Assembly: GCF_000732625.1 (NCBI RefSeq)
Contig: NZ_JPJI01000026.1
Coordinates: forward strand, 310,001 to 374,000
Direction of reading: 5' to 3'
Origin: Nonlabens ulvanivorans
GTDB lineage: Bacteria; Bacteroidota; Bacteroidia; Flavobacteriales; Flavobacteriaceae
DNA: 64,000 bases
Part shown: positions 962-62,947 of the stretch, one piece after another
Layout of the letters: each line of letters begins with the position of its first letter
Position numbering within the stretch: the stretch's first letter is position 1
The notes under the pieces: model-generated
What the model saw: only the letters and a program-made list of their open reading frames with translations
The model's database searches: none
Told to the model about the DNA's origin: nothing
Position numbers and translations under genes: made by a program

Positions 962-1608
962 TTAACGCATTTAAAGATTCGGTTTCAAAAATAAAGAAAA
1001 TGCCTTTACCAGGTTTTGAAGCGCAACTTAAAATGGCTGCAGTAGAACGACTAGAAGAATTGCAACGCGAGTCGCTACGTAAAAAAACACCTCGCAAGGC
1101 AGCTGTTATGATGCTAGTATATCCCGTAAAAGATATCGCTCATTTTGTTCTCATCGAACGCATGATTTCTAAAGGTGCTCATAGTGGTCAGATAGCATTT
1201 CCTGGCGGCCGTAAGGAAGAAGAAGATCAAGATGATGCTGTTACCGCTATAAGAGAGACTCATGAAGAAGTAGGCATAATGCCAGAACATCAAGAAATTA
1301 TCACTGCAGGCACTCCTATCTATATTCCTCCTAGTAATTATATGGTAGCTCCTTTTCTCGCTTTCGCGAAAGCGGAATTAAAATTCACAAGACAGCCTAG
1401 CGAGGTTAAATCTATCATAGAGGTACCATTACATGAGTTAATGGACCCTACAAACGTGAGCCAACATACACTCTCTACTAGCTATGCAACAGATATAACA
1501 GTACCATGTTATTATCTACAAAACCAAGTCGTTTGGGGTGCTACTGCAATGATGCTCTCAGAATTTAAAACTATGTTACAAGAAAGTTTATCTTTAAGGC
1601 ATGACTAA
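952..1608 (+). CDS. NUDIX hydrolase, CoA pyrophosphatase type
   Basis: The 218-residue protein has the CoA-pyrophosphatase signature HSGQIAFPGGR (77-87), which runs into the Nudix box with GGR and RETHEEVG (101-108), the Mg2+-binding and catalytic segment. This NudL/CoAse group cleaves CoA or related nucleotide diphosphates to phosphopantetheine and adenosine diphosphate. The TTG at 952 is preferred over the internal ATG at 1000 because the preceding residues (FNAFKDSVSKIKK) resemble the N-terminus usual in the family. The 16-bp palindrome at 1359-1374 lies inside the gene and is read as AFAKA. The stop overlaps the start of the next gene by 8 bp, so the two are probably co-transcribed. Confidence 0.88.
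   Translation: MISFNAFKDSVSKIKKMPLPGFEAQLKMAAVERLEELQRESLRKKTPRKAAVMMLVYPVKDIAHFVLIERMISKGAHSGQIAFPGGRKEEEDQDDAVTAIRETHEEVGIMPEHQEIITAGTPIYIPPSNYMVAPFLAFAKAELKFTRQPSEVKSIIEVPLHELMDPTNVSQHTLSTSYATDITVPCYYLQNQVVWGATAMMLSEFKTMLQESLSLRHD
986..993 (-). promoter_or_regulatory. putative -7 promoter element for the cyclophilin gene
   Basis: TATTTTTG on the minus strand matches the Bacteroidota TAnnTTTG consensus and would give a leader of about 18 nt. It lies inside the first codons of the divergent NUDIX gene. No clear -33 element was identified. Confidence 0.45.
1359..1374. repeat. palindromic repeat CGCTTTCGCGAAAGCG, coding
   Basis: Exact 16-bp palindrome inside the NUDIX gene, read as AFAKA. 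Member of the family described in the findings. Confidence 0.9.
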
Positions 1609-3427
1609 AAAGGCTTTTTTTATAACAGTGCTACTGGGACTACTTTCAATTGTGGCACTGGCTCAAGAACGTGTATTTATAGACTTTGGCTCTACTAATG
1701 AAGATCTAGCAAGTCGGGAATACATCAACAATATTTCAACCAGTTATCAAGCTGGCTATTCAAACGGTGTATTATTATATAATCATTTAGGTGTTTCATC
1801 AGGAATTAACCTCAAAGTGCATGACGCTTGGTTAAATATTAACCTATCAGGTTCATTAGACCCTTCATATCAGGTGAACGTTGCTCAATCTGCAAGTAGA
1901 GATAGTTTTTTTGGTGCCACAAGTTCATTTAATGGCGGCACTCAGGTGACAGGTGGATTTAAATTAAGACAGTTAGATCCTAATAAATTTTACAGCTTTT
2001 CATTTTTTGCTTCTAGAATGAATGTAACTGATAATCGTGAAACTTCGTATACAGTTAATGGTAACACAACTCAAGTCGTAAACCTAAACGCTTCAAATAA
2101 CACAACTCAAAAGATTGAGGTTTATAATATGCAACCAGACAGTAATGGCGAGATAGAGATTACTGCAACAGCTGGTGCAAACAATACAAACAGTTATGGA
2201 TTTTATTATCTCAACGCTCTTGAAATACAAATCGATAACACACCTATCTCTCAATTTATTACACAACAAAATTTGCTACTCACCTATCCCATACAACAAT
2301 CAACTTGGGAAGTAGGTAAAACGGTTCCATTATCGTGGATTAGTGAAGGTATCGATCAGGTTACCTTAGAATACTCTATCGATGGTGGAAATACCTTCAA
2401 CAATATAGCAACAGTTCCTTCCACAGATCGGAGCTATGATTTTACCGTTCCCAATTCCCTTTCTAGTAATGTGATTATAAGATTAAGTGATGGAAGCCAA
2501 GTAATAGACAGTGTACCTGTTACAATTATACCAAATGACAATACCGTTTATCGTATAATTGTGCTAGGCTCTTCTACAGCTGCTGGAAGTGGTCCTTCAA
2601 ACCAGTATAACGCTTGGGTATGGAAATACCGCCGTTACTTAGAACAATTAGACACACGTTATGAGGTTATAAATCTGGCACAAGGTGGATTTGTTACCTA
2701 TAATATTTTACCTACTGGAACCACAATACCTGCAGGTGTTAATAAAACCATTAATATAGATAAGAATATAACTAAGGCTGTCAACCTTAATGCACATGGA
2801 ATTATCATCAATCTACCATCTAATGATGCAGCTGGCAACTATCCTGTAACAGATCAATTGCATAATTATAGTTTAATCTCTCAAACGGCTTCTCAAAATC
2901 AAATACCATTATGGGTGGCAACACCACAACCACGTAACTTTCCAGCAAACGGAAGTCAAGTCGCTATACAAACACAAATGGTCACAGAAACATATAACAC
3001 TTTTGGAACTTTTGCTGTAGATTTTTGGACAGGTATAGGTAACACTGCCGGAAATCAAATATTACCAGCATATAATAGTGGTGATGGTGTGCACGCTACA
3101 AACGAGGCTCATCAAATATTTTATGAAAGACTATTATTAAAAGATATACACGGCACTGTTAAAACACAGGTGGACGCAGCACTATCTATACCTGATGAAC
3201 AACAGATTGAGCTAGCCTTATACCCTAATCCGGTTAAACATTTACTATTCTTAGAATCTACGAGTCCTATTTCAACAGTAAAAATTTATAATCAACTAGG
3301 TCAATTAGTATTAGAAAATCACCATACTGTAAACATGATTAACTTACAAGATTTACAATCAGGTTATTATGTTGCTCACATCTACATAAATGATAAAATT
3401 TACTATAGAAAAGTGTTAAAAAATTAA
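1601..3427 (+). CDS. T9SS-secreted SGNH/GDSL-type hydrolase
   Basis: The 608-residue protein starts with a Sec signal peptide (residues 1-21, ending ALAQ). A beta-rich N-terminal half is followed by an SGNH hydrolase domain. This has GSSTAAGSG with the nucleophile Ser near residue 323, a conserved Gly (AQGGFVTYN), an Asn block (INLPSND) and the catalytic DGVH near 495. The C-terminus from about residue 539 (LYPNPV...) is a type A T9SS sorting domain, so the enzyme is exported across the outer membrane and probably surface-attached or released. SGNH enzymes are esterases or lipases, often acting on acylated polysaccharides; the substrate is not visible. The gene overlaps the upstream NUDIX gene by 8 bp. 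Confidence 0.82.
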   Translation: MTKKAFFITVLLGLLSIVALAQERVFIDFGSTNEDLASREYINNISTSYQAGYSNGVLLYNHLGVSSGINLKVHDAWLNINLSGSLDPSYQVNVAQSASRDSFFGATSSFNGGTQVTGGFKLRQLDPNKFYSFSFFASRMNVTDNRETSYTVNGNTTQVVNLNASNNTTQKIEVYNMQPDSNGEIEITATAGANNTNSYGFYYLNALEIQIDNTPISQFITQQNLLLTYPIQQSTWEVGKTVPLSWISEGIDQVTLEYSIDGGNTFNNIATVPSTDRSYDFTVPNSLSSNVIIRLSDGSQVIDSVPVTIIPNDNTVYRIIVLGSSTAAGSGPSNQYNAWVWKYRRYLEQLDTRYEVINLAQGGFVTYNILPTGTTIPAGVNKTINIDKNITKAVNLNAHGIIINLPSNDAAGNYPVTDQLHNYSLISQTASQNQIPLWVATPQPRNFPANGSQVAIQTQMVTETYNTFGTFAVDFWTGIGNTAGNQILPAYNSGDGVHATNEAHQIFYERLLLKDIHGTVKTQVDAALSIPDEQQIELALYPNPVKHLLFLESTSPISTVKIYNQLGQLVLENHHTVNMINLQDLQSGYYVAHIYINDKIYYRKVLKN

Positions 3428-3502
3428 ACGATTTTAAATGTGATTAACAGCTAGTATCCTTACAATCCCTATCTTAGCCGTCCCTTAAACTTAAATGACT
3501 CT

Positions 3503-4306
3503 ATGGGATTATTCAAAAAAAATCCTTTCGGACATATACTATGGATTAAACGTTTTTTAATACGCTTTTTAGGTGTGTTATCTCACAGACGTTTTAGAGG
3601 TTTTAATGAATTACAGATTGAAGGAAGTGAGATTTTGAGAAACCTACCAGAACAAGGTGTTCTTTTCATTTCAAATCATCAGACCTATTTTGCAGACGTG
3701 GTAAGCATGTTTCATGTATTTAATGCTGCCTTATCTGGCAGACAAGATTCTATTAAAAACGTAGGTTATCTGTGGAACCCTAAACTTAATATCTATTATG
3801 TAGCCGCAAAGGAAACCATGACCAGTGGATTTTTACCGAAAGTGTTTGCTTACGTAGGCGCGATTACCGTAGAACGTACCTGGCGTGCAAAAGGAGAAGA
3901 AGTAAATAGATCTGTTAATCCAGATGACACTAAGAATATAGGTGTCGCCTTAAATGATGGCTGGGTTATTACATTTCCTCAGGGAACTACAAAACCATTT
4001 AAACCTATTAGAAAAGGTACTGCCCATATCATTAAACAATATAAACCTATTGTTGTTCCTATTGTAATTGATGGTTTCCGTAGAAGTTTTGATAAAAAAG
4101 GACTACGTATTAAAAAACGTAATATTCTACAATCTATGGTCATTAAAGAACCACTAGATATCGATTATGAAAATGAAAGCGTAGAATCCATCGTAGAAAA
4201 AATTGAATATGCTATAGAACAGCACTCATCATTTTTAAAAGTGATTCCACAAGAAGCATTAGAAGAAATGGAAGAGTTGAATCAAAAACGTAAATGGGAT
4301 TACTAG
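3503..4306 (+). CDS. PlsC-like 1-acyl-glycerol-3-phosphate acyltransferase family protein
   Basis: The 267-residue product belongs to the PlsC/LPLAT acyltransferase fold. These enzymes transfer fatty acyl groups to lysophosphatidic acid or a similar acceptor in membrane lipid synthesis. Motif I appears as NHQTYFAD (58-65), in which six rather than five positions separate the His from the Asp, so it is HX5D and not the canonical HX4D. Motif III appears as FPQGTT in place of FPEGTR. Both changes are seen directly, and the surrounding fold is well kept, so this may be a distinct lineage rather than a dead enzyme. An N-terminal hydrophobic helix (10-26) is consistent with membrane association. 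The acceptor substrate is uncertain. Confidence 0.78.
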   Translation: MGLFKKNPFGHILWIKRFLIRFLGVLSHRRFRGFNELQIEGSEILRNLPEQGVLFISNHQTYFADVVSMFHVFNAALSGRQDSIKNVGYLWNPKLNIYYVAAKETMTSGFLPKVFAYVGAITVERTWRAKGEEVNRSVNPDDTKNIGVALNDGWVITFPQGTTKPFKPIRKGTAHIIKQYKPIVVPIVIDGFRRSFDKKGLRIKKRNILQSMVIKEPLDIDYENESVESIVEKIEYAIEQHSSFLKVIPQEALEEMEELNQKRKWDY

Positions 4307-5123: not shown

Positions 5124-5139
5124 CGCTTTCGCGAAAGCG
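5124..5139. repeat. palindromic repeat CGCTTTCGCGAAAGCG, intergenic
   Basis: Exact 16-bp palindrome between the hypothetical membrane protein gene and pheT. Confidence 0.9.
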
Positions 5140-5180: not shown

Positions 5181-7604
5181 ATGAAGGTTTCTTACAACTG
5201 GATACGTCAATTTATAACTGTTCCTGAATCAATTGAAGAGCACGCAGCTTTGCTCACTTCTCTAGGTTTAGAAGTAGAAGGTATTGAGAAATTTGAAAGC
5301 GTAAAAGGAGGATTGCAAGGTATTGTAGTAGGTCACGTACTGGAATGTGTGAAACATCCCAATGCTGATAAACTTAAACTTACCAAAGTAAATATAGGCA
5401 CTGAAACAGTGCAGATTGTATGTGGCGCACCTAACGTAGCTGCTGGGCAAAAAGTACCGGTAGCCACCATAGGCACTACACTATACACAGAAACTGGTGA
5501 GGCATGGAAAATCAAAAAAGGAAAAATACGTGGTGAAGAAAGCCATGGTATGATCTGTGCCGAAGATGAACTGAACATAGGTACATCACATGATGGTATC
5601 ATGGTTCTAGACGCATCATTAGAACCAGGAACATTATTTAGTGAAGTAATAAATATAGAAAATGACTATACTATAGAGATTGGACTGACGCCTAATAGAT
5701 CTGATGCGATGTCACACCTAGGTGTTGCACGTGATTTAAGAGCAGGACTTGCGATTGAAGGAGATTTATTAGAGTTTATCACGCCATCTGTAAGTAGTTT
5801 TCATGTAGACAACCGTTCACACAGAGTTGATATAGCAATTGATCAACCAGAACTTGCACCTAGATATTGTGGTGTTACACTTACAGGTTTAACTATAAAA
5901 GATTCTCCAGATTGGATTCAAAATAGATTAAAAGCCATAGGTATTGCTCCTAAAAATAATGTCGTTGATATAACTAACTATGTGATGCATGAGTTAGGTC
6001 AACCACTGCATGCTTTTGATTTAAGCGCCATTGAAGGAAATAAGATTGTTGTAAAAACATTACCGGCTGGAACTAAGTTCACTACTCTAGATGAGGTAGA
6101 ACATGACTTACATGAAGAGGATTTAATGATTTGTGATGGTGTAAAACCATTATGTATTGCAGGTGTTTATGGTGGATTAAATAGTGGTGTTAAAAAAGGG
6201 ACTAATTCTATCTTTTTAGAATCTGCATATTTCAATCCAGTAAGCGTACGTAAAACGGCAAAACGTCATGGTTTTAACACAGATGCTTCTTTTAGATTTG
6301 AACGTGGCATAGACCCTAATATTACAGAATATGCACTTAAGCGTGCTGCCTTATTAATAATAGAAACTGCTGGTGGAGAAATAAGTAGTGATATCACTGA
6401 TGTTTATTCTCATAAAATTGAGGACCAACAGGTTTTTCTTCCCTTTTCTAAAGTCAATTCTTTAATAGGAAAGGAAATACCTAAAGAAGAAATCAAGAGT
6501 ATTCTTAGAACATTAGATATTCACGTTAATAATGTAACAGAAACAGGATTAGGTCTGACAATTCCTGCATATCGCAATGATGTTACTAGACCAGCAGATG
6601 TCATTGAAGAGATTTTACGTGTTTATGGATATGATCGCATAGAAACTAGCGATAAACTAAATGCTAGTATTGCAAAAAGTTCGAGGTTAGACAATCATAA
6701 ACTACAAAACCTAGTAGCACAGCAACTTGCTGGTCAAGGCTTTTATGAAATGATGGCAAATAGCCTTACCTCTGATAAATACCATACACTTACAGAGCAA
6801 ATATCTCCAAAGAATGAAGTGCGCATGTTAAATCCTTTAAGTAGTGATTTATCTGTTATGCGTCAAAGCATGATCTATGGGGCTCTAGAGGCTGTTTCTC
6901 ATAATATTAACCGTAGACAAGAGAATTTAAGATTGTTTGAATTCGGTAATACTTATCATCAATATCAAGAAAGACAATTTACAGAGCAAAAGCATTTAAG
7001 TTTAATAACTACCGGTGCTATACATGAACAAAGTTGGAATAATACATCTCGCACGGCTGACTTCTTTTACTTAAAAGGTGCCGTAATAAGTGCTCTTAAA
7101 AGATTAGGTATTACTAAAATAAATGAGAAACCTACTAAGATGGATTTCTTAAGTGAAGGAATATCATTGAATAGCGGTACTAAAATCGCAGATCTTGGAG
7201 TTGTTAAAAAGAAGGTATGTAAATCATTTGATATAGATGCAACTGTGCATTATGCAAATATCTATTGGGATGAAGTATTGAAATTAGTAAAAGAAGATCG
7301 CAAATCGGTAACTGCAATACCTAAATTTCCTGCTGTTAAAAGAGATCTAGCTTTATTAGTTAACGATGAGACTAGCTTTAAGGAATTACATGATATTGCC
7401 TTACAAACTGAGAAAAAACTCCTCAAAGAGGTTCAACTATTCGATGTTTATGAAGGTAAAAATCTTGCAAAAGGTAAAAAATCCTATGCATTAAGTTTTT
7501 TATTACAAGATGAAGTAAAAACACTTACTGATAAACAAATCGATAAAGCGATGCAAAAAATACAACAGCAACTAGAAAAACAAGCTGGAGTAGAACTACG
7601 TTAA
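5181..7604 (+). CDS. pheT: phenylalanine--tRNA ligase beta subunit
   Basis: The 807-residue product has the full bacterial PheT architecture. The N-terminus MKVSYNWIRQF is typical. It is followed by an EMAP-like tRNA-binding OB fold (about 40-150), a B3/B4 editing domain (about 210-370, with NNVVDITNYVMHELGQPLHAFD), a B5 domain (about 400-475), the catalytic-like core (480-690) and a C-terminal FDX-ACB anticodon-binding domain (from about 710, IPKFPAVKRDLALLV). With PheS it forms the (alpha-beta)2 enzyme that charges tRNA-Phe. pheS is not adjacent, so the subunits are encoded separately here. A terminator follows directly. Confidence 0.97.
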   Translation: MKVSYNWIRQFITVPESIEEHAALLTSLGLEVEGIEKFESVKGGLQGIVVGHVLECVKHPNADKLKLTKVNIGTETVQIVCGAPNVAAGQKVPVATIGTTLYTETGEAWKIKKGKIRGEESHGMICAEDELNIGTSHDGIMVLDASLEPGTLFSEVINIENDYTIEIGLTPNRSDAMSHLGVARDLRAGLAIEGDLLEFITPSVSSFHVDNRSHRVDIAIDQPELAPRYCGVTLTGLTIKDSPDWIQNRLKAIGIAPKNNVVDITNYVMHELGQPLHAFDLSAIEGNKIVVKTLPAGTKFTTLDEVEHDLHEEDLMICDGVKPLCIAGVYGGLNSGVKKGTNSIFLESAYFNPVSVRKTAKRHGFNTDASFRFERGIDPNITEYALKRAALLIIETAGGEISSDITDVYSHKIEDQQVFLPFSKVNSLIGKEIPKEEIKSILRTLDIHVNNVTETGLGLTIPAYRNDVTRPADVIEEILRVYGYDRIETSDKLNASIAKSSRLDNHKLQNLVAQQLAGQGFYEMMANSLTSDKYHTLTEQISPKNEVRMLNPLSSDLSVMRQSMIYGALEAVSHNINRRQENLRLFEFGNTYHQYQERQFTEQKHLSLITTGAIHEQSWNNTSRTADFFYLKGAVISALKRLGITKINEKPTKMDFLSEGISLNSGTKIADLGVVKKKVCKSFDIDATVHYANIYWDEVLKLVKEDRKSVTAIPKFPAVKRDLALLVNDETSFKELHDIALQTEKKLLKEVQLFDVYEGKNLAKGKKSYALSFLLQDEVKTLTDKQIDKAMQKIQQQLEKQAGVELR

Positions 7605-10727: not shown

Positions 10728-12182
10728 ATGATTTTTTATAGTCTGCTTTCGCGAAAGCGTAATTATCTTCTTATTAGCTCCTTAATTACTGGAGTACTAT
10801 TACTATTTACCTCATGTAAGGAAGATAATTCTAATGCTGTTACTCATATTTCAGGTAAAATTATCAATGCTCATAAAGAATTTGTAACCTTAAAAGATTT
10901 TAATGGCTTAACAGATACAATTCCTTTAGCGGCAGATGGTTCTTTTTCAAAATCGTATAACTCACTTAAACCTGGTCTATATACATTTGCACATCCTGGA
11001 GAATATCAGTCTGTATATCTTTCACCTGGAGACAGCACTGTTTTAAGGCTTAATACTAAGGCCTTTGATGAAACTCTAGCTTTCTCTGGAACACATTCAA
11101 AAGAAAATAATTATCTTATTAATCTTTTTGTGCAAATTGAAAAAGATGATCGTGAATTTCTTAATAATTATAAGTTATCACATACAGAATTTAAAAAAGT
11201 GTTAGATAGCATTACCGAGGCTAGAATATTAAATCTAGAATCTATTGCTGAAGAACATTCACTAGATCCAGATTTTTTGTGCCATGCAGATAAGGTTTTT
11301 AAATTTTCAATGTGGTCAAAAATAGAGCGCTTTCCTTTTGTACACTATGGTAAAAATGATTTTTTAGAAAGTAAAGAATTGCCGCCTTCATTTTATTCTT
11401 ACAGAAAAGATTTTGACATAGATGACAAATCACTACTTAATAATATAGCCTTCAGACCTTATGTAAATTCCCTGATTTCTAACCTTGCATTTACTAGCCT
11501 GGCAAAAGAATTAGGATCAGGTGTGCTGGTAGACCGATCTAGTTTAAAATATCAAAAGAAGAGACTGGCTGTAATTGATAGTTTATTTTCACGTGGAATA
11601 GTTAAAGATATTTTTGCTTCTAACATTACGCAACATTTCATAATGAATCGTAAAAATGCTAATGAGATTAATGAATTAGTTGACTTATTCACAAGCATGA
11701 CTGACGATGCTGAGTTAAAAAACAGAATTACTACTACAGCATCTACCTACATTAAACTGGATCCTGGTAATGAAATGCCTAACATTAAGATCCAAAACAC
11801 TAATAGGGATAAAATGGAATTATCTGAGCGTGTAAAGAAACTGACGGTCTTATTCTTCTGGTCTGATGATGAGCGTGAATATGCAATAAGAGTACACGAT
11901 AAAATTAAAGATTTAAGACTTAAGTATCCTGAGATTGATTTTATAGGTATTAATCTAGATGATTCTGAAGGTAATCAATGGGAAGAAGCTTATGAGCGTT
12001 ATAGTTTTAACTCTAACATGGAGTATCAAATCCTAAACACCTCACCGGTGACCGCACAATTAGCATTGCGCAATGATAATCGCAGCATGGTAATTGATAA
12101 AAATCTCACGATAATAGACCCTAGTATTAATCTATTTCATTATCAAATAGAAACAACGCTGTTGGGTTATATTAACAGATAA
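10728..12182 (+). CDS. thioredoxin-fold (TlpA-like) lipoprotein without CXXC
   Basis: The 484-residue protein begins with a lipoprotein signal ending LLFTSC, whose basic n-region (LSRKRN) is encoded by the palindromic repeat at 10744-10759. Residues about 35-130 resemble the DUF4369-like beta domain common in Bacteroidota thioredoxin lipoproteins (ISGKIINAHKEFVTLKD). A helical middle follows. From about residue 350 there is an AhpC/TlpA-type thioredoxin fold (DPGNEMPNIKIQN... LTVLFFWSDDEREYAIRVHDK). The usual WCXXC is absent: the position reads WSDDERE, so it should not act as a disulfide oxidoreductase in the normal way. A binding or structural role in the periplasm is possible. Confidence 0.75.
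   Translation: MIFYSLLSRKRNYLLISSLITGVLLLFTSCKEDNSNAVTHISGKIINAHKEFVTLKDFNGLTDTIPLAADGSFSKSYNSLKPGLYTFAHPGEYQSVYLSPGDSTVLRLNTKAFDETLAFSGTHSKENNYLINLFVQIEKDDREFLNNYKLSHTEFKKVLDSITEARILNLESIAEEHSLDPDFLCHADKVFKFSMWSKIERFPFVHYGKNDFLESKELPPSFYSYRKDFDIDDKSLLNNIAFRPYVNSLISNLAFTSLAKELGSGVLVDRSSLKYQKKRLAVIDSLFSRGIVKDIFASNITQHFIMNRKNANEINELVDLFTSMTDDAELKNRITTTASTYIKLDPGNEMPNIKIQNTNRDKMELSERVKKLTVLFFWSDDEREYAIRVHDKIKDLRLKYPEIDFIGINLDDSEGNQWEEAYERYSFNSNMEYQILNTSPVTAQLALRNDNRSMVIDKNLTIIDPSINLFHYQIETTLLGYINR
10744..10759. repeat. palindromic repeat, one mismatch, coding
   Basis: TGCTTTCGCGAAAGCG, differing from the core at its first base. It is read as LSRKR in the signal peptide of the thioredoxin-fold lipoprotein. 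Confidence 0.85.
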
Positions 12183-18162: not shown

Positions 18163-18178
18163 CGCTTTCGCGAAAGCG
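18163..18178. repeat. palindromic repeat CGCTTTCGCGAAAGCG, intergenic
   Basis: Exact 16-bp palindrome directly after the duplicated glnN terminator. Confidence 0.9.
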
Positions 18179-19575: not shown

Positions 19576-20052
19576 TTAACTTTTAAGTATTTCGCTAACT
19601 AATTTTAACTTCGGTTCGATATATCTTTTACAAAATGGCGCGTCTGGTCTGGTTTTATAGTAATTCTGGATGGACTCGCGAGATGGTTCAAATGCTACAA
19701 AAGGTAACACTGCAGTGATGTATTTTTTATTACGCTTACGCGAAAGCGTATTTATAATAGACTTCACCTTTTTTTCAGTCTCTACATCAAAGAAATATAC
19801 CACACTACGATAGTCTTCTCTCCTACTATGTTGTTGTGTTGAAGCATGTGTTTCTAAATGAACGTCAATAAGTTGCTCTAGATCAACTAGAGTAGAGAAA
19901 TGAACGATAACAGCTTCACTCATAGAATCATAAGGTGTCTCACTAGAAATGTATCCTTGCTCTACTTTTACCACACCAGTCACTGCTTGAAAAACAGCCT
20001 CAGTACACCAGTGACAGCCGCCACCTAATCCTATTTTGAGAATTGTTTTCAT
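19576..20052 (-). CDS. msrA: peptide-methionine (S)-S-oxide reductase, variant active site
   Basis: The 158-residue protein has the MsrA fold, with the catalytic cysteine at Cys13 in GGGCHWCTEAVF. The usual family motif is GCFWG, so the Phe and Gly are replaced by His and Cys. Further family landmarks are VVKVEQGYIS, the TPYDSMSEAVIVHF segment, HSRREDYRSVVYF and a late Cys in PFCKRYIEPKL that could resolve the disulfide. MsrA repairs methionine-S-sulfoxide in proteins. The sequence LSRKRN within the gene is encoded by the palindromic repeat at 19733-19748. It is divergent from prfA. Confidence 0.85.
   Translation of the reverse strand: MKTILKIGLGGGCHWCTEAVFQAVTGVVKVEQGYISSETPYDSMSEAVIVHFSTLVDLEQLIDVHLETHASTQQHSRREDYRSVVYFFDVETEKKVKSIINTLSRKRNKKYITAVLPFVAFEPSRESIQNYYKTRPDAPFCKRYIEPKLKLVSEILKS
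19733..19748. repeat. palindromic repeat, one mismatch, coding
   Basis: CGCTTACGCGAAAGCG on the plus strand. It is read as LSRKR in msrA on the minus strand. Confidence 0.8.
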
Positions 20053-22210: not shown

Positions 22211-24196
22211 CTAAAACTTCTTTTTATGATATAATTTACCATCTCTTGTATAAGCTCGCCAGGTTCCTGTTTTTTCTCCTTTATTAAAACGACCAGAAAT
22301 CTTTAATTCACCATTAAAGTAGTAGAGTTTATAGCGTCCATGTGGTATACCGTCTTTTAGGTATACTTTCATTTCTGTTTTACCGGTATTAAATTTAGTT
22401 ACATAACTGTTCGCTGTAAAATCGTTAGGGAAAATCTCAGGAATATCAAAAATCGTTTCCTTGCTAATTTCCTCCTTTTCAATTTCTAAAACCGAAAACG
22501 GTATGCCTTCAGATTTTTTTTCAAGACGTTGTGCCTCTACATCATAATCTGTATCAAAATGAATTACGGCTTTAGTCTTAAAATGGTTCCCATCTGCTTT
22601 AAGCTCTAGTCCTAACTGTGTGAATTGCGAGAAGAAATTCTCATTATCTTGAAGCTCCTTCTTAGAATCAGCATTTAAATATGATTGTGAAGCGTGCGCT
22701 AGCTTGTTGGTGTCTACATATAAAAACACATTGCTAGAATTACTAAATTCATCTATAAAATCACGATAATACTCGTCTGTAAACAAGGTTTTTTGAGATT
22801 CATAAGCATCTATATATAGTTTCAAGGTTATAGGTGAATTACTAAAAACTACGTACTCATTAATCGTGGTGTAATATGGTTTTTCTATGTTTTCAAATAA
22901 CGAACCCAATATTAATTTAAAAAAGCCTTTGATATTTAAATAGTGAATATCATATCCTTTGTACTCTACCGTTTGGAACTTTACTGGCGTTGTTTTTCTA
23001 ATCTGATTTTCTATGTGCTGTAAATGCTTATTACTATCATCTACGTCTTTAGTTTTAAAGGCAATGGCAAGTCCGTCCTTATCGTTGAGTTGTGGGAAGT
23101 CCGCTTTCGCGAAAGCGATCTCATCATCAATCCAGCTATAAAAATCATTTTCTAAATCGATGTCTATGAACTCTTCTACTCTAGTTTTTCCATCTTCATA
23201 CTGCTTCGCCATATCAGGCTGTTTTTCACCCAATAAATTGTAAAAAGACTCGTGTAGTGTGATAAAGTCTTCAAAGCCAAAACTCATGTACAGCGCTGTT
23301 TCTTGAGGCAAAACACCTATAGCATCTATAGAACCAGTGCCCGAATCATCAAGCGCTTTTACCAGCGCATCCATTACCTCATTACCGCTAGAATAACCTG
23401 TTGCGGTTAACAAACGATCATCATCTTCATCTATATTAAATCCAGAGAAATTAAAATTGGTTTCTAGTGTTTCAACAATTGCACTAGGTTCATTTGAGAA
23501 TACTTTGTAGTAGCTGGTAAGTTGCTTATGATTAAGATATAAACGAAATAAACCTTTCTTTTTGAGCTCTTTTTGGATCTCTAAGAATTGTAAATCTCTA
23601 CCGATTTGTGGATTTTCATATTCATCTATGGACTTCTCCACTAGAGAATGTGTGTATGAGGCAATCATTTGGTTTTTTACAAATGCAATGGAAAGAGTTT
23701 CAAAGGACTCTAGATCAGTGATTTCTGTAATTTCAACTTCTTTAAAATTTCTTTTAGTTACTTTAAAATCCTTATTGAGTAATTGATTAATATTATTTTT
23801 AATAACGCCTAATCGCGATAACTTATCCATATCCACTACATAGAGAAAAGCATAATCATCACGCTTAATCATATGGGCAGATAGTAGGACATCGCGTTCT
23901 CCTATCATATTAAAGAGATCACTTTTTTGCTGAAACAAAGAGTCTAGCGCATTAACTTTGGCAGACATCTCATGAATTTGATCATTAGTCTGTAAATGAT
24001 CCCATAGAGCACTCGTGGAGAGTGTTTCAATATTCTCTAGCGGCTCATCAAATTCCATGATGAAGATAGCGTCACTTGGTATTAAATATACCGAGTTAAT
24101 TTTATCTTCTTCTATTGCAAAAAAGCTTATCGCCTGATAGCCTAAAAACGCAATCATCGCAATAATGATAATGTAAATGATTTTTTTTAAAGTCAA
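22211..24196 (-). CDS. DUF3352-like envelope protein with C-terminal MORN-type repeats
   Basis: The 661-residue product has an N-terminal membrane anchor (residues 5-27, a signal-anchor without lipobox). A long extracytoplasmic region follows that resembles DUF3352 (SVYLIPSDAIFIMEFDEP at the start, repeated alpha/beta halves). The last 60 residues, with DGIPHGRYKLYYFNGELKIS, GRFNKGEKTGTW and RDGKLY, are MORN/YwqK-like repeats of the type G-x-W/Y-x-x-Y-x-x-x-G. A palindromic repeat is read in frame at 23102-23117 (AFAKA). Cellular role unknown; MORN-like tails often mediate membrane or protein contact. It stands as a single gene. Confidence 0.65.
   Translation of the reverse strand: MTLKKIIYIIIIAMIAFLGYQAISFFAIEEDKINSVYLIPSDAIFIMEFDEPLENIETLSTSALWDHLQTNDQIHEMSAKVNALDSLFQQKSDLFNMIGERDVLLSAHMIKRDDYAFLYVVDMDKLSRLGVIKNNINQLLNKDFKVTKRNFKEVEITEITDLESFETLSIAFVKNQMIASYTHSLVEKSIDEYENPQIGRDLQFLEIQKELKKKGLFRLYLNHKQLTSYYKVFSNEPSAIVETLETNFNFSGFNIDEDDDRLLTATGYSSGNEVMDALVKALDDSGTGSIDAIGVLPQETALYMSFGFEDFITLHESFYNLLGEKQPDMAKQYEDGKTRVEEFIDIDLENDFYSWIDDEIAFAKADFPQLNDKDGLAIAFKTKDVDDSNKHLQHIENQIRKTTPVKFQTVEYKGYDIHYLNIKGFFKLILGSLFENIEKPYYTTINEYVVFSNSPITLKLYIDAYESQKTLFTDEYYRDFIDEFSNSSNVFLYVDTNKLAHASQSYLNADSKKELQDNENFFSQFTQLGLELKADGNHFKTKAVIHFDTDYDVEAQRLEKKSEGIPFSVLEIEKEEISKETIFDIPEIFPNDFTANSYVTKFNTGKTEMKVYLKDGIPHGRYKLYYFNGELKISGRFNKGEKTGTWRAYTRDGKLYHKKKF
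23102..23117. repeat. palindromic repeat CGCTTTCGCGAAAGCG, coding
   Basis: Exact core inside the DUF3352-like gene, read as AFAKA on the minus strand. Confidence 0.9.
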
Positions 24197-29527: not shown

Positions 29528-29543
29528 CGCTTTCGCGAAAGCG
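29528..29543. repeat. palindromic repeat CGCTTTCGCGAAAGCG, intergenic
   Basis: Exact core, flanked by TTA on the left and TA on the right, between divergent genes. Confidence 0.9.
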
Positions 29544-32362: not shown

Positions 32363-34615
<2,253 letters not shown>

Positions 34616-36382: not shown

Positions 36383-36406
36383 ATTACGCTTTCGCGAAAG
36401 CGTAAT
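36383..36406. repeat. extended palindromic repeat, intergenic
   Basis: The exact 16-bp core at 36387-36402 is extended by ATTA on the left and TAAT on the right, giving a perfect 24-bp palindrome. It is the longest member in the window. Confidence 0.92.
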
Positions 36407-40745: not shown

Positions 40746-41404
40746 TTGCTCAGGATGATAATATCAAGTAAAGATGGATTACCACCACCACGACCACCAT
40801 TATTGCCGTTGATTTTACTAGCGCTTAAAATGATGAAAAAGAGAAAAATCCCAAAAATGATCAAAGAACTCCATGGAAAATCTTCTTTAGTAAAATCTCG
40901 TGATTCTGTAAATTCTCCAATTAATACTTTAAAAATAGCATCTACACCATCGTTAAGACCAGCGTAATAATCGCCTGTCTTAAAACGTGGTATCATAACG
41001 CCATTAATAATGCGCTCAGACAATAAGTCTGTCATGCGGTATTCTATACCATAACCAGTTGATATATCGACTTTACGATCTTCTACAGCCAGTAAAATAA
41101 CGATTCCATTATCTTCTTTTTCCTGACCTACACCCCATTTTTGTCCCCATTTTGTGGACACCATAGAGATATCATCGCCTTTAGTAGATGTAACGATAAA
41201 GACCACAATTTGTGTAGATGTAGAGTCTGCATAGCGCAGTAATTTATTTTCTAGCGATACACGTTGTGACTGGTCCAACAAACTGGCATAATCATACAGT
41301 GATGTCTGTAAATTATCTACCGGTTTTGGCGGAATTATAAATTGCCCATATACCTGTAAAGTAACCAGCAACAACAATCCTATAACAAAATGGAGCTTCT
41401 TCAT
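40616..41404 (-). CDS. TPM-domain protein with glycine-rich tail (YgcG-like)
   Basis: The 262-residue protein has a signal peptide (ending VYGQ), then a TPM_phosphatase domain (about 30-165, with NLQTSLYDYASLLDQSQR, STQIVVFIVTS, DNGIVILLAVEDRKVDISTGYG). A membrane helix follows (about 178-196), then a tail made almost wholly of Gly, Phe and Ser. The TPM domain is topologically extracytoplasmic here. Such proteins in lemA operons are envelope proteins of poorly known role. It is the last gene of a three-gene lemA-TPM-TPM operon and overlaps the preceding gene by 1 bp. Confidence 0.85.
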   Translation of the reverse strand: MKKLHFVIGLLLLVTLQVYGQFIIPPKPVDNLQTSLYDYASLLDQSQRVSLENKLLRYADSTSTQIVVFIVTSTKGDDISMVSTKWGQKWGVGQEKEDNGIVILLAVEDRKVDISTGYGIEYRMTDLLSERIINGVMIPRFKTGDYYAGLNDGVDAIFKVLIGEFTESRDFTKEDFPWSSLIIFGIFLFFIILSASKINGNNGGRGGGNPSLLDIIILSNMGRGSMGGGFGGGGFGGGSSGGGFGGGFGGGGFGGGGASGGW

Positions 41405-41856
41405 TAACTGGTCGTTATCTCATCTGGTAGTTCATTGACATCATCTACATCCCATGGGAAATAGCACGCTAACTGTTCACCGGTAAGGTGTATGGCATCT
41501 ATAAGGCCTTTGTGAAATACGCTTTCGCGAAAGCGTGATACCAACAACTCTTTAATACTTACCCAAAAATCGTCTCCTACATGCTGGTGTATCCCATGAT
41601 CACCGATAATGGCAAATTTGCGATCTGTAACGGCGATATAAAATAGGATACCGTTTTCATCCTTTGTATTATCCATTTTAAGTAGATGAAAAATCTCTTG
41701 CGCACGTACATAAGCGTCACCAGCGCAGTGAGATTCGAGATGTACTCTTATCTCACCACTTGTGGTACGTTCTGCCTTTCTAATGGCGGCAATGATTTGC
41801 TGCTCTTGTGCGGCAGTGAGAAAATTTTCTACTTTAGAACCCATGGTATTAGTCAA
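41404..41856 (-). CDS. TPM-domain protein, short
   Basis: The 150-residue protein consists of one TPM domain without signal peptide or membrane helix. Landmarks are FLTAAQEQQIIAAIRKAERTTSGEIRVHLE, DENGILFYIAVTDRKFAIIGDHGIHQHVG and VSRFRESVFHKGLIDAI. It differs from its neighbour in lacking export and membrane elements, so it may stay in the cytoplasm. The RFRES within it is encoded by the palindromic repeat (41520-41535). It overlaps lemA upstream by 8 bp and the next TPM gene by 1 bp, which indicates translational coupling. Confidence 0.85.
   Translation of the reverse strand: MTNTMGSKVENFLTAAQEQQIIAAIRKAERTTSGEIRVHLESHCAGDAYVRAQEIFHLLKMDNTKDENGILFYIAVTDRKFAIIGDHGIHQHVGDDFWVSIKELLVSRFRESVFHKGLIDAIHLTGEQLACYFPWDVDDVNELPDEITTS
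41520..41535. repeat. palindromic repeat CGCTTTCGCGAAAGCG, coding
   Basis: Exact core, read as RFRES in the short TPM gene. It is the last copy before a 12-kb stretch without any. Confidence 0.9.
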
Positions 41857-53657: not shown

Positions 53658-53705
53658 TCTCGTTAAATGGATTGTTTTAATAACGCATAAAAGTGGTAAT
53701 TGTTA

Positions 53706-53721
53706 CGCTTTCGCGAAAGCG
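53706..53721. repeat. palindromic repeat CGCTTTCGCGAAAGCG, intergenic
   Basis: Exact core in the alaS leader, flanked by TTA on the left. Confidence 0.9.
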
Positions 53722-53793
53722 AGTTCTCAACAACCCAACTACTCCATTTCAACAAAAATAACAAATTACCATTAACCGCTTTTAAAGCTGCAC

Positions 53794-57673: not shown

Positions 57674-57681
57674 TACCTTTG
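57674..57681 (+). promoter_or_regulatory. putative -7 element for the GSCFA gene
   Basis: TACCTTTG, matching TAnnTTTG. Transcription would start near 57688, so the upstream in-frame TTG (57679) and ATG (57682) cannot serve as starts, and the ATG at 57706 is used. Confidence 0.5.
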
Positions 57682-57705
57682 ATGTTATTAAATGTGAAGA
57701 TAACA

Positions 57706-58623
57706 ATGCAACTTACCACACCAGTTCCTATTACTCCATTACAACCTGCCATTAACTATGACAGTTCTCTGGTATTTTTAGGTAGTTGTTTTACAGAAAA
57801 TATAGGTAGCAAAATGGCTTATCACGGCTTTAAGACTTGCGTAAATCCATTTGGGATCATATTTAATCCTCATAGTTTACTGGTATTACTCGAGCGTTCT
57901 TTGAGTGGCGACTTGTTTACTCTAGAGGATGTAGAAACTCATTTTTCTTACCTCGCGCATTCTGATTTAAATGGTTCTACTAGAGATGCGGTTTTAAATA
58001 ACCTGAATATTGCTGGAACATTACTTACTCAACAGATTAAAAAAGCCTCACATGTGTTTATCACGCTAGGCACGGCTTGGGTATATGAGCATATTGAACA
58101 ACAATCGATTGTCGCAAATTGTCATAAACAACCGCAAGGATTATTTGTCAAGAAACTATTATCTATAAATGAAATTTCAAAAAAATTAAGCGACATTATC
58201 TCCATCATAAAAAATGCAAAACATGATGTTACCGTAACTTTCACATTATCACCAGTACGTCACATTAAAGATGGATTTACAGAAAACCAACGCAGTAAAG
58301 CAAGACTTTTCGAGGCCATTCAAGCGGTAGTAGAAACGCAAAAAGCGCAGTATTTCCCAGCATATGAGATTGTGATGGATGAACTGCGTGATTACAGATT
58401 CTATGGCCGTGATATGATTCATTTAAATGAAACGGGCATTGAGTTGGTCTGGGAACGCTTCCGCGAAAGCGTGATTTCTACAACTTGCTCACCTATAATG
58501 AAAGCGGTAGATAAACATCGTAAGCTAATGGCGCATCGACCTTCAAATGTTGATTTGCATTTGGAACAGATTGAAAAATCTCTGATAAGCCTGCAACAAA
58601 AATTTCCTCAAGTTGAATTATGA
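57706..58623 (+). CDS. GSCFA domain protein
   Basis: From the ATG at 57706 the protein is 305 residues. The hallmark GSCFTENIG is followed by VNPFGIIFNPHSL and LGTAWVYEH, as in GSCFA proteins, which have an SGNH-like hydrolase fold. Further landmarks are TLSPVRHIKDGFTENQRSKA and YFPAYEIVMDELRDYRFYGRDMIHLNETG. The DxxH near the end is typical of the catalytic acid-base pair. No signal peptide. Substrate unknown. It overlaps the next gene by 4 bp. The palindromic repeat at 58456-58471 is read as RFRES. Confidence 0.85.
   Translation: MQLTTPVPITPLQPAINYDSSLVFLGSCFTENIGSKMAYHGFKTCVNPFGIIFNPHSLLVLLERSLSGDLFTLEDVETHFSYLAHSDLNGSTRDAVLNNLNIAGTLLTQQIKKASHVFITLGTAWVYEHIEQQSIVANCHKQPQGLFVKKLLSINEISKKLSDIISIIKNAKHDVTVTFTLSPVRHIKDGFTENQRSKARLFEAIQAVVETQKAQYFPAYEIVMDELRDYRFYGRDMIHLNETGIELVWERFRESVISTTCSPIMKAVDKHRKLMAHRPSNVDLHLEQIEKSLISLQQKFPQVEL
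58456..58471. repeat. palindromic repeat, one mismatch, coding
   Basis: CGCTTCCGCGAAAGCG, read as RFRES in the GSCFA gene. Confidence 0.8.
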
Positions 58624-59603: not shown

Positions 59604-59632
59604 AGCTTTGATATTAAATTTTAAAAACTAAG

Positions 59633-59666: not shown

Positions 59667-59700
59667 ATCCATTAATAAATCAAATAAACCGACAGTTGTT

Positions 59701-60174: not shown

Positions 60175-60674
60175 TCTGTAATAATTTCGTTTAAATCCAT
60201 TTCATCTTCTAGATAGTCATACAACACATCTGTGTCAACACTTTCAGTAAGACTAATATTGTCTAATATATCGTTATCTGCAAATAATATATCTACTGTA
60301 GCGTCATCATATAAAAAAGATTCTTCAATGAGATAATCTTCTAGTACTGACGTATCTACACTTGCTATATCTACTGACTCATTTCCACTATTTAAAGTTA
60401 GAACAATAGCAAGCATTGCCGCTATTGCAAGGACTGGATATAAGAAAGTAGTGACATTAGACTTCTTAGGTAATTGTCTTACCTTATCATCAACTACCGG
60501 TAATAATTGTTCTTCTAGAGTTTCAAAATAACCATCAGGCACTTCAAAACCAGTTTCTTTACCTAGCTTATCTTCAAGATTCAATTGTGTCATCATGTCC
60601 TCTTCAAAATTTTTGAAGAAGTCTTGAGGCACTTGAAAACCTAAATCCTTATTATGTTTATTTTCTTTTTCCAT
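60171..60674 (-). CDS. anti-sigma-like single-pass membrane protein
   Basis: The 167-residue protein has a cytoplasmic N-terminal half with two copies of a short motif, GFQVPQDFFKNFEEDM and GFEVPDGYFETLEEQL, and one membrane helix (about 98-113). The acidic periplasmic part ends in several Asp/Glu-rich repeats (DTSVLEDYLIEE, DTDVLYDYLEDE). Its place between an ECF sigma factor and a Spy-like protein supports an anti-sigma role, although no classical zinc anti-sigma motif is present. It starts 36 bp after the sigma gene. Confidence 0.75.
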   Translation of the reverse strand: MEKENKHNKDLGFQVPQDFFKNFEEDMMTQLNLEDKLGKETGFEVPDGYFETLEEQLLPVVDDKVRQLPKKSNVTTFLYPVLAIAAMLAIVLTLNSGNESVDIASVDTSVLEDYLIEESFLYDDATVDILFADNDILDNISLTESVDTDVLYDYLEDEMDLNEIITE

Positions 60675-60709
60675 GTTCTGATTTTAAGACTCTTAAGTTC
60701 TCAAATAGT

Positions 60710-61258
60710 TTAATCTTCTTTAATAAATTGTTCAATTTTTTTTGCAGCAATATGGTAACTAGACTTAACAGCGCCTTCACTTAACTCTAACAAATTTGCA
60801 ATATCCTTAAATTTAACCTCATCATAATAACGCATCTTAAAGATTTCGCTTTGTCTTTTAGGCAATTGAGCGAGTGCTTTCTGTAGTGCTAATTGGATTT
60901 CGTCACCAGTAAAATATACATCTGCTTCAATTTGTTCTACTAAATGAGCTTGTAGCTCTGCGTCACTTATTTGTAGCTGTTTCTTTTTTTTAGTAAGAAA
61001 GGTCATGCTTTCATTATATGCGATACGATATAACCATGATGAAAGTTTACTATCGCCTTTAAAATTTTTAATTCCTTTAAAAACTTTTACAAATACATTT
61101 TGCAACACATCATGTGCATCATCATGATCTATAACTAACTTTCTAATTTGCCAGTATAATTGCTCTTGAAACTCCTTTAAAAGCATGCGGTAGCCAGCCT
61201 CTGTGGAATGAGGCACTTTCAAAAGTTCCAGAATCTCGTATTCTTTATCTGCTATCAT
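60710..61258 (-). CDS. ECF RNA polymerase sigma factor (sigma-70 family)
   Basis: The 182-residue protein has region 2 (about 20-90: DHDDAHDVLQNVFVKVFKGIKNFKGDSKLSSWLYRIAYN) and region 4 (about 120-178: LAQLPKRQSEIFKMRYYDEVKFKDIANLLELSEGAVKSSYHIAAKKIE). There is no region 1 or 3. It would direct RNA polymerase to stress promoters when released from the membrane protein encoded next to it. It is the first gene of the operon and divergent from the Bax inhibitor gene. Confidence 0.94.
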   Translation of the reverse strand: MIADKEYEILELLKVPHSTEAGYRMLLKEFQEQLYWQIRKLVIDHDDAHDVLQNVFVKVFKGIKNFKGDSKLSSWLYRIAYNESMTFLTKKKKQLQISDAELQAHLVEQIEADVYFTGDEIQLALQKALAQLPKRQSEIFKMRYYDEVKFKDIANLLELSEGAVKSSYHIAAKKIEQFIKED

Positions 61259-61380
61259 AGTCTACCTTATGACTCAAAAAGAAAGATAAGGTTTAATTCA
61301 ATTGCAGAAAATTTTATTAATGTTTTAGCGTTGTAAAAAAGTAGTTTAATTATCTTCACTAATTGTAATATAAACTAACC

Positions 61381-62100
61381 ATGGATCAAAATAATATTTC
61401 TTCTTATCAACCACTTATTGCCGCTAGCGATGATACTAGAGTAGCATTTTATAAACGCACCTATGCGCACGTTGCACTAGCCGTTTTATTATTTATAATA
61501 GTAGAGTCTATATTTTTACGCATTGAGCCATTGGTAGAGTTTGCGTTATCCATGACACAAGGATGGAGATGGTTATTAATGTTGGGAGGATTTATGCTAG
61601 CAACAAACTATGCAGAAAATATTGCGCATAAATCACACGATAAAACCAAACAATATCTCGCATTATTACTTTATGTGATTGCAGAGGCATTTATTTTTCT
61701 TCCCATGATATGGATTGCCATTGCTTATTCTGGTGGAAGCATGAATATCTTTGACAATTCCATCATTAATCAAGCAGCTGTAATGACTCTAGCTTTATTT
61801 ACAGGCTTGAGTGCGATTGTATTATTCACTAAAAAGGATTTTAGTTTCCTGCGCAACATACTGATGGTAGGCTTTTTTATAGCTATAGGTTTAATTATCG
61901 CAGGTATGATATTTGGTTTTAATCTAGGGCTTGCTTTTAGTGCAGGTATGGTAGTTCTTGCTGCAGGTTCTATACTTTATCAAACCTCTAACTTAGTACA
62001 TAAATATAGTACAGATCAACATGTAGGAGCTTCACTAGGTCTATTTGCATCATTGATGTTATTATTCTGGTATTTACTGAGTATATTCTCTAGAGATTAG
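61381..62100 (+). CDS. Bax inhibitor-1/YccA family membrane protein
   Basis: The 239-residue protein has seven hydrophobic helices and the BI-1 pattern (FYKRTYAHVALAVLLFI, YVIAEAFIFLPMIWIA, LALFTGLSAIVLFTKKDFSFL, GMVVLAAGSILYQTSNL). Bacterial BI-1 relatives are inner membrane proteins linked to Ca2+ leak or to FtsH-dependent control; the precise function here is unknown. The length is typical. It is divergent from the sigma factor operon. Confidence 0.88.
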   Translation: MDQNNISSYQPLIAASDDTRVAFYKRTYAHVALAVLLFIIVESIFLRIEPLVEFALSMTQGWRWLLMLGGFMLATNYAENIAHKSHDKTKQYLALLLYVIAEAFIFLPMIWIAIAYSGGSMNIFDNSIINQAAVMTLALFTGLSAIVLFTKKDFSFLRNILMVGFFIAIGLIIAGMIFGFNLGLAFSAGMVVLAAGSILYQTSNLVHKYSTDQHVGASLGLFASLMLLFWYLLSIFSRD

Positions 62101-62143
62101 ATTTCTCTCTCACATACTTGTTCTTAATCCAGAGACTGAATGG

Positions 62144-62947
62144 ATGGCGCCATATGCATTTGCGGCTGTAGCCATCGGATTTTTATTTTTCTTTGGACAC
62201 CTCATTTTGCGCAAATTACAGCACAAGAACGATTTTGTATGGAATAGACAACCCGTAACGTATCGCAAGTTAACGCTTTCGCGAAAGCGTATTCTAGAAA
62301 CATATCCTTTCTACCAACAGCTCTCTAAAAAATACCAACGACAGTTTGAACATCGTATGGTGGCTTTTATAAAAGATAAAGACTTCAGACATCGTTATGA
62401 AAATGAAGTATCTGATGCACAAGTTACTTATAGCGCTGCTGTGGCTATACAATTAAGTTTTGGTAGAGCAAACTATTTGTATAGTATGATGAATACGGTA
62501 TTGTTTTTCCCACAGGCATTTCAAAGCCCTACCAATGAGGCAATGCATAAAGGTGAATACAATCCACGAGCTAAAGTACTTGCTCTATCCTGGGAAGACT
62601 TCTTAACAGGTATGGCTATTGATAACGATAATCTTCATTTAGGACTACATGAATTTATGCACGTTATGCATTTTGAAAGTAAGCATAGTACAGATGTAGA
62701 TTCTGCTAGATTCCATAAATACGAGCAAAAGATATTACATCATATCATGCAACCTGAAGTAAGAGAACGACTAGATAACACTAAATACTTCAGAGAATAT
62801 GCATTTACAAATGAATATGAATTTCTATCTGTACTTACAGAATACTTCTTTGAATCGCCAGCCGACTTTAAATCGGGTTTCCCAGTATTGTTCAATTATT
62901 TAAAAACTGCCTTACTTTATAAGGACGAATGGATTTTTGAAAATTAA
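62144..62947 (+). CDS. zinc-dependent peptidase of the M90 (MtfA) family
   Basis: The 267-residue protein has an N-terminal membrane helix (about 4-22), unlike soluble E. coli MtfA. The peptidase domain has the metal motif HEFMH (His169 to His173) in LGLHEFMHVMHFESK, then a downstream Glu in NEYEFLSVLTEYFFESP. NPRAKVLALSWEDFLTG is also conserved. MtfA-type peptidases act in the cytoplasm and affect carbohydrate uptake regulation in enterics; the flavobacterial target is unknown. The N-terminal LSRKR (45-49) is encoded by the palindromic repeat at 62274-62289. Confidence 0.86.
   Translation: MAPYAFAAVAIGFLFFFGHLILRKLQHKNDFVWNRQPVTYRKLTLSRKRILETYPFYQQLSKKYQRQFEHRMVAFIKDKDFRHRYENEVSDAQVTYSAAVAIQLSFGRANYLYSMMNTVLFFPQAFQSPTNEAMHKGEYNPRAKVLALSWEDFLTGMAIDNDNLHLGLHEFMHVMHFESKHSTDVDSARFHKYEQKILHHIMQPEVRERLDNTKYFREYAFTNEYEFLSVLTEYFFESPADFKSGFPVLFNYLKTALLYKDEWIFEN
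62274..62289. repeat. palindromic repeat CGCTTTCGCGAAAGCG, coding
   Basis: Exact core, read as LSRKR in the M90 peptidase gene. Confidence 0.9.

Follow-up and report, generated by a model that had tools for sequence, protein, structure and literature searches.

Across the 64-kb window of Nonlabens ulvanivorans analyzed here (positions 310,001 to 374,000 of contig NZ_JPJI01000026.1) nine exact and four one-mismatch copies of the 16-bp palindrome CGCTTTCGCGAAAGCG are scattered. The chromosomes of these marine bacteria contain hundreds of exact copies of this one 16-letter word, evenly spread and found at the same places in relatives. The data support placing it among the highly iterated palindromes, as they are known in cyanobacteria, and it behaves as a site bound by a symmetric protein would. 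It looks like a self-DNA signal, for uptake or for recombination. This is the best single reading, held tentatively, and it ranks ahead of a chromosome-organizing site, a recombination hot spot and a product of the kind proposed for the cyanobacterial palindrome HIP1, none of them being proven.

Copy numbers and taxonomic range

All thirteen positions picked by eye in the first-pass annotation were real copies, and its division into five intergenic copies and the rest in genes agreed with the open reading frames (ORFs), five copies lying between and eight inside them. Also the perfect 24-bp palindrome reported around one intergenic copy was present (Table 1). A scan allowing up to two mismatches found no site in the window beyond these 13. 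The copies had been claimed to be essentially unexpected by chance; shuffled windows had a mean of 0.02 copies, and 13 were reached in none of 100 shuffles. The copy in the peroxidase gene katG, rightly called doubtful, has one mismatch and encodes a peptide that we take to be a conserved catalase-peroxidase motif, and it may therefore be an amino-acid coincidence. The genic status of the copy at 10744 is uncertain, since it depends on a possible start codon 16 bp before the copy.

The whole genome (3,211,390 bases in 45 contigs) contained 436 exact copies, while the reversed control word was found 0 times. The numbers expected from Markov models, which were fitted to 464 kb of this genome with the palindromes left in, were about 1e-4 (orders 0-2), 3e-4 (order 4) and 0.11 (order 5). 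Shuffles, reversed control and Markov models thus exclude chance and base composition as explanations. The proposed likeness to the highly iterated palindromes of cyanobacteria was borne out by these counts and by the perfect symmetry of the word, and the copies were not confined to the window.

All 23 Nonlabens genomes examined had 180-737 exact copies. Among 36 genomes outside the genus, representing 32 genera and including the 23 genomes by which the range beyond the family was covered, copies were found in G033 alone (four). In a survey of 397 genomes of the family, N. ulvanivorans included, hundreds of copies were present in four Nonlabens, in Dokdonia sinensis (G250; 630) and in G234 (153); three further genomes (G120, G330 and G095) had 11 to 13, and the others 0 to 6. 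The 12-bp core CTTTCGCGAAAG was found 574-685 times in the four Nonlabens, 917 times in D. sinensis, 445 times in G234 and at most 21 times elsewhere, so that none of the other sampled genera carries, throughout the genome, a variant differing in the outer bases. Among the matches listed in a wider scan, numerous records were of Nonlabens and Dokdonia, and unrelated genomes contributed single copies. In the alaS tree Nonlabens and D. sinensis were weakly joined (support 73/77), and a single clade of Nonlabens, D. sinensis and G234 was borderline rejected on alaS alone (approximately unbiased test, p-AU 0.046).

Structure, spacing and conservation of the sites

The genome G002, also of Nonlabens, was sampled as 40 evenly spaced 20-kb stretches (800 kb), which held 151 exact, 28 one-mismatch and six two-mismatch copies. 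The corresponding numbers were 65, 28 and eight in 464 contiguous kb of N. ulvanivorans, and 220 kb of G234 had 16 exact and 14 one-mismatch copies, the mismatch lying at the outermost base in all 14. Outside palindromes, the half-site CGAAAGCG was found 14 times in N. ulvanivorans and G002 together, against a mean of 14.7 over 560 letter permutations, and GCGAAAGC showed no excess in N. ulvanivorans (2 vs 1.7 expected). A function of half-sites is unsupported, CGAAAGCG being at the permutation mean and GCGAAAGC, with the two other genomes given below, mildly in excess. The full palindrome is the principal unit, which is what a protein recognizing double-stranded DNA symmetrically would require. 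TCGCGA seemed to be depleted, an artefact that arose because sub-words had been counted on both strands and the palindrome itself only once.

The 151 sites of G002 have flanks of biased composition over 30 bp, the 5' flank being C-poor and T-rich and the 3' flank G-poor and A-rich, in the same way inside and between genes. The local GC skew was 0.28-0.40, and beyond 30 bp at most 0.1 with one bin of 0.11; C stood at position -3 in only one of 302 half-sites. When G002, N. ulvanivorans and D. sinensis were pooled (516 half-sites), T had maxima at -3, -6, -9 and -12, and in the T power from -5 to -30 period 3 was the strongest of the 13 tried (31; the next was 11.6 at 12). Codon periodicity was ruled out as the whole cause, because also the intergenic sites are periodic. 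The flanks in D. sinensis had the same skew, with A favored at -1, and those in G234 a weak one.

The left and right flanks varied independently over the 151 G002 sites, with no covariation, which suggests that each half-site is read on its own, and the extension by pairing to 24 bp seen in the window is not general. Folding compared with shuffles gave a z of -0.94 for the 16-mer and -2.78 for the 24-mer. Selection for an extended hairpin was ruled out by the absent covariation and by the 16-mer folding little beyond shuffles.

In G002 and N. ulvanivorans the exact copies were spaced more evenly than under random placement. The 112 within-stretch gaps in G002 had a mean of 4.3 kb, a minimum of 1,125 bp and a coefficient of variation (CV) of 0.52, whereas random placement gave 23.5 gaps below 1 kb and a CV of 0.88, and 0 of 1000 simulations matched the observed values. 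In N. ulvanivorans the shortest of 64 gaps was 1,001 bp, with 8.5 gaps below 1 kb expected, and the CV was 0.74 vs 0.98 (p 0.0055). D. sinensis had two gaps below 1 kb vs 7.4 expected (p 0.0065), and its exact and one-mismatch copies together were more regular than random (CV 0.612 vs 0.972). In G234, with one-mismatch copies included, no gap was below 1 kb vs 3.7 expected (p 0.013), and the CV was not reduced.

With genes called as longest ORFs, no annotation being used, 63 of the 151 G002 copies lay between ORFs, on 8% of the sequence, and 88 within them in all three frames (50/21/17), the commonest frame reading AFAKA. The intergenic enrichment was 5.6-fold in N. ulvanivorans, 7.9-fold in G002 and 9.2-fold in D. 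sinensis. Overrepresentation, even distribution and permissive positions, which together characterize uptake sequences, were found in N. ulvanivorans and G002, partly in D. sinensis and weakly in G234. Transcription terminators were unsupported as an explanation, since convergent gaps in G002 were unenriched (7 vs 9.8 expected); co-directional gaps were in excess (41 vs 32.6). The G002 sites lean towards the upstream stop codon (Kolmogorov-Smirnov p 1.5e-4), and those of N. ulvanivorans do not (p 0.71).

Individual sites were conserved in place across the genus. The 661-amino-acid gene with the copy at 23102 is of full or near-full length in 15 of the 23 Nonlabens, N. ulvanivorans included. 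At the position of the palindrome ten of these have an exact copy, one a one-mismatch copy and two a copy interrupted by a 20-bp palindrome; of the other two, one has no copy in the gene and one an exact copy at a distance of about 96 bp. The G002 gene contains internal stops, and its palindrome is nevertheless exact. Upstream of alaS, a site was found in 12 of 12 Nonlabens at -78 to -101 (nine exact, three one-mismatch) and also in D. sinensis, there interrupted by the 20-mer CCTGCCTGCCGGCAGGCAGG, and none stood there in 15 other genomes including G234; G001 and G030, with alaS matches in pieces, were left out of this comparison. Six of the 65 N. ulvanivorans sites, all genic, could be mapped to the sampled G002 stretches, where four were exact, one had one mismatch and one had two, while control 16-mers were exact in 2 of 39 genic and 0 of 10 intergenic cases. 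None of the 65 was mappable to stretches of 14 other Nonlabens.

Acquired DNA and the second palindrome

The longest gap in the 464 kb of N. ulvanivorans, 32.6 kb with a GC content of 0.32, contains one two-mismatch copy near its end. Its genes include HsdM-, HsdS- and HsdR-like genes, two serine recombinases and a STAND-type NTPase. No match at up to three mismatches was obtained in two related Nonlabens phages of 35.7 kb each (altogether 71 kb). In recently acquired DNA the copies were thus absent from one island and two phages, and six were present on one phage contig.

In several other genomes of the family the few copies present stand at spacings that recur (2446, 933 and 3460 bp) and have matching flanks. 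Of the four copies of one such locus, L059, two lie in an outer-membrane efflux gene, one in a CusA/AcrB-type gene and one in a heavy-metal P-type ATPase gene, and these genes adjoin multicopper-oxidase genes. The copies in metal-resistance genes of other genera look like transfer from a palindrome-rich donor. The palindrome can mark transferred DNA, as several of the rare copies in other genera stand at common positions and, in one annotated locus, lie in metal-resistance genes. In G033 and G352 a second ParB-domain protein of ~600 amino acids is encoded within 7 kb of such scattered copies.

A second palindrome of 20 bp, CCTGCCTGCCGGCAGGCAGG, was found inside the 16-bp site, between the As of CGAAAG. 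It has one mismatch in L179 and L096, and what is left of the 16-bp site is decayed in L181 and L096. Counted over whole genomes, the 20-mer was joined to the site in 8 of its 14 copies in D. sinensis and in 4 of its 8 in G004 and G020 together, which looks like targeted invasion.

Table 1. Palindrome copies in the window and related loci elsewhere (ORF, open reading frame; window positions unless a locus is named).
Feature	Coordinates	Context
exact	1359..1374	in ORF 952-1608, CoA pyrophosphatase/NUDIX-like (below family cut-off)
exact	5124..5139	intergenic, upstream of pheT (5181-7604)
one-mismatch, outermost base	10744..10759	16 bp into ORF 10728-12182
exact	18163..18178	intergenic
one-mismatch	19733..19748	in ORF 19576-20052, MsrA-like (below family cut-off)
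exact	23102..23117	in ORF 22211-24196 (-); 15 Nonlabens loci aligned
exact	29528..29543	intergenic, divergent ORFs either side
one-mismatch	33610..33625	in peroxidase (katG) gene 32375-34615; doubtful member
exact, within perfect 24-bp palindrome	36383..36406 (core at 36387)	intergenic
exact	41520..41535	in ORF 41404-41856 (-); homologous place in G002 exact
exact core 53706-53721, with 30 bp per side (extent of the biased flanks measured in G002)	53676..53751	intergenic, 88 bp before alaS
one-mismatch	58456..58471	in ORF 57679-58623
exact	62274..62289	in ORF 62144-62947; homologous place in G002 exact
low-GC palindrome-free island	G000:C26:168010-191815	N. ulvanivorans; type I restriction-modification
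tailed-phage contig, 37 kb	IMGVR_UViG_3300040781_000495 (L036, L053, L056)	terminase, portal and tail-sheath genes
metal-resistance locus with palindromes	L059:5641-18606	
metal-resistance locus, one copy	L063:6033-9848	in CusA/AcrB-type gene
CCTGCCTGCCGGCAGGCAGG in site, Nonlabens	L168:2585 (G004), L169:2389 (G020)	
CCTGCCTGCCGGCAGGCAGG in site, D. sinensis	L339:4167, L179:4208, L181:4674, L186:367, L096:11454	

Possible roles and comparison with known systems

Passages of PMC7811141 describe uptake sequences as fairly evenly distributed, underrepresented in new segments and in coding sequence, and accompanied by flanking preferences, and PMC2397512 gives, in the part concerned, their spacing as equal to the size of conversion fragments. 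Uptake sequences under molecular drive are thus reported or modelled to be evenly spaced, to occupy permissive positions, to be scarce in newly acquired segments and to have preferred flanks; with the transformation known in Riemerella (below), this makes a self-DNA signal the preferred reading. The palindrome would be the core of a symmetric signal of ~76 bp, formed by the 16 bp and ~30 biased bp per side, and a dimeric or otherwise symmetric protein would read it as double-stranded DNA. Uptake or recombination of DNA would become more probable if it bears the signal, and the signal would spread by molecular drive until each tract taken up or converted has about one copy. The reader, the drive and any part played in uptake or in recombination are inferred.

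In Nonlabens and Dokdonia the signal could serve a pilus-less, ComEC-dependent natural transformation, as in Riemerella of the same family. RecA binds three nucleotides per monomer, and the C-poor, T-rich, 3-periodic flank may, speculatively, favor its loading on the strand with the 3' end at the palindrome. This narrower version, a palindromic uptake signal for a pilus-less machine of Bacteroidota with half-sites read in double-stranded DNA and a RecA-friendly flank, we regard as doubtful; if true, one 76-bp element would serve both uptake and strand invasion, in both directions. For Riemerella, PMC8459023 reports, in the portion available, transformation without detected pilus homologues. 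The corresponding portion of PMC7965970 states that R. columbina prefers its own DNA and lists only A/T-rich words as putative signals, leaving their function open.

The first-pass annotation had suggested a search for a protein with the same range as the repeat, and none was found among the three protein families tested (ParB_N, PF00437 and ComEC). ComEC was present in 27 of 27 genomes tested. The sole match to PF00437, the type IV pilus and type II secretion ATPase family, over the cut-off was G007:C8:126205-127296, in a Nonlabens. A machine of the Neisseria or Haemophilus type was thus not seen in 11 of 12 Nonlabens, PF00437 being only sub-threshold there.

Several points weigh against a self-DNA signal. 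None of the three families provided a cognate reader, and PF00437 exceeded the cut-off in 1 of 27 genomes, the others being sub-threshold. We know neither of documented competence in Nonlabens or Dokdonia nor of a 16-bp palindromic uptake sequence. The spacing is not perfect: with one-mismatch copies, N. ulvanivorans has gaps of 487 and 489 bp (2 below 1 kb vs 16.8 expected), D. sinensis has gaps of 602 and 945 bp and an exact-copy CV no better than random (0.973 vs 0.966), and the 16 exact copies of G234 are without significant regularity (CV 0.957 vs 0.908), its intergenic enrichment being only 1.7-fold. Outside palindromes GCGAAAGC is about twofold over the Markov expectation in G002 (16 vs 7.2) and D. 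sinensis (8 vs 4.0), and a tailed-phage contig carries six exact copies in three non-overlapping stretches. The deep positional conservation (12 of 12 at alaS) suits a site of local function equally well and, more than any other finding, goes beyond what drive by itself requires.

Second comes a chromosome-organizing site, at which a nucleoid-associated or segregation protein would bind the palindromes as a dimer and space loops or foci. The regular spacing with few short gaps, the preference for full palindromes over half-sites, the conserved positions and the even cover of the G002 chromosome all agree with it. Sites of Noc, SlmA and MatP are unevenly distributed along the chromosome, with an origin-terminus gradient or an excluded zone. 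The suggested check for such a bias showed no gradient in G002, the one genome sampled, measured as distance from parS (Spearman -0.18, p 0.26); exact copies per 20 kb were 4.2, 3.8, 3.8 and 3.3 in the successive distance quarters, and only 1 of the 40 samples, taken every 98 kb, was without a copy, leaving no wide excluded zone. A SlmA-, Noc- or MatP-type site, with exclusion from or confinement to the terminus, is not supported by this distribution of 3.3 to 4.2 exact copies per 20 kb in G002.

ParB_N was found in 28 of 28 genomes, with second copies of ~600 amino acids in G014, G019, G033 and G352 alone, and no ParB paralogue tracks the palindrome among the 28. An exact parS is present in all 12 Nonlabens tested; in ten of them an exact and a one-mismatch parS lie ~1.89 kb apart (e.g. 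G000:C32:561801 and 563693). As parS is kept, an altered specificity of the ordinary ParB is unlikely, and a ParB or Noc site was rejected on the separate parS and the absence of a tracking paralogue. Copies carried by the phage contig, and those found outside the genus in metal-resistance genes, also speak against organization of the chromosome. The evidence on the guess of a chromosome-organizing protein in the first-pass annotation is thus mixed, the even spacing and conserved positions fitting it and the lack of an origin-terminus gradient, the copies in phage and metal-resistance DNA and the lack of a tracking extra ParB counting against it; on balance we consider it rather unlikely.

A recombination hot spot, either Chi-like or a programmed break, is less probable and in our view unlikely. 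Processed ends would there give 3' strands whose flank would presumably load RecA, and this agrees with the 5' flank of each strand being C-poor and T-rich for ~30 nt with T at -3, -6, -9 and -12, since a cut at the palindrome would leave that strand as the single-stranded 3' tail. Break sites tend to disappear by conversion, whereas these sites are kept. A one-strand, 8-base Chi is opposed by CGAAAGCG being unenriched and GCGAAAGC at most about twofold in excess, and for the same reason the palindrome does not belong to the Chi sites, which are short, non-palindromic, oriented words.

A methyltransferase and mismatch repair could create and keep the palindrome without any function of the site, as in a HIP1-like process. 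Elhai associates highly iterated palindromes with a methyltransferase by which the repeat is recognized. The palindrome is GC-rich and its one-base deviations are biased to the ends (outermost base in 18 of 28 in G002 and 13 of 28 in N. ulvanivorans), and the near-misses of N. ulvanivorans peak again at the sixth base (11 of 28), which does not fit. A 14-16 bp core with ~30-bp flanks exceeds the methyltransferase sites known to us, all of which are shorter, and neither the short-gap deficit nor the conserved positions follow obviously from a substitution bias. We hold this explanation to be very unlikely.

A mobile miniature repeat of the repetitive extragenic palindromic (REP) type, copied into the genome, would account for hundreds of palindromic copies denser between genes and is still so improbable that it can nearly be dismissed: 88 of 151 copies are inside ORFs in three frames although 16 bp is no multiple of 3, composition alone and no conserved foot sequence is common to the copies beyond the core (no search for a RAYT gene was made), and the position is kept across the genus in the one gene aligned.

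Genome-wide signals this dense are known from few lineages, and several of them led to uptake specificity, segregation or recombination. The short-gap deficit, the long symmetric footprint and the sharp phylogenetic boundary imply that the reader could be found by gene content or pull-down. The repeat was unreported in the parts of the literature retrieved for the 16-mer, highly iterated palindromes of Flavobacteria, overrepresented palindromes of Bacteroidetes and palindromes of Nonlabens or Dokdonia, and the excerpts matching TTTCGCGAAA were apparently unrelated.

Like HIP1 (GCGATCGC, cyanobacteria), the palindrome is highly iterated, perfect and lineage-restricted, with near-misses at the outer bases. 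It differs from HIP1 in having 16 bp instead of 8, about one copy per 4-7 kb in Nonlabens, few gaps below 1 kb and long biased flanks. The sections consulted of PMC4390886 describe HIP1 as a palindrome rich in GC whose one-base deviations fall preferentially on the first and last positions, and give Elhai's model, in which copies accumulate to a density of at most about one per 1000 nt; they mention neither Nonlabens, Dokdonia and Bacteroidetes nor the stem Flavobacteri.

With Chi the palindrome shares many chromosomal copies and a flank with a strand bias of possible use to RecA, and it differs in being palindromic, hence without orientation, and in its little or not enriched half-sites. The sites of parS and Noc are 14-16 bp palindromes read by a dimer, thus of similar length; unlike them, CGCTTTCGCGAAAGCG occurs by hundreds chromosome-wide beside a separate parS and with no extra ParB tracking it. 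The DNA uptake sequences (DUS) of Neisseria and uptake signal sequences (USS) of Haemophilus are non-palindromic, shorter and several-fold denser, about one per kb according to passages of PMC7811141 and PMC2397512, and the pilus ATPase was over the cut-off in just 1 of 12 Nonlabens. With DUS and USS the palindrome shares hundreds of exact copies, even spacing, an intergenic bias, flank preferences and small differences between genera.

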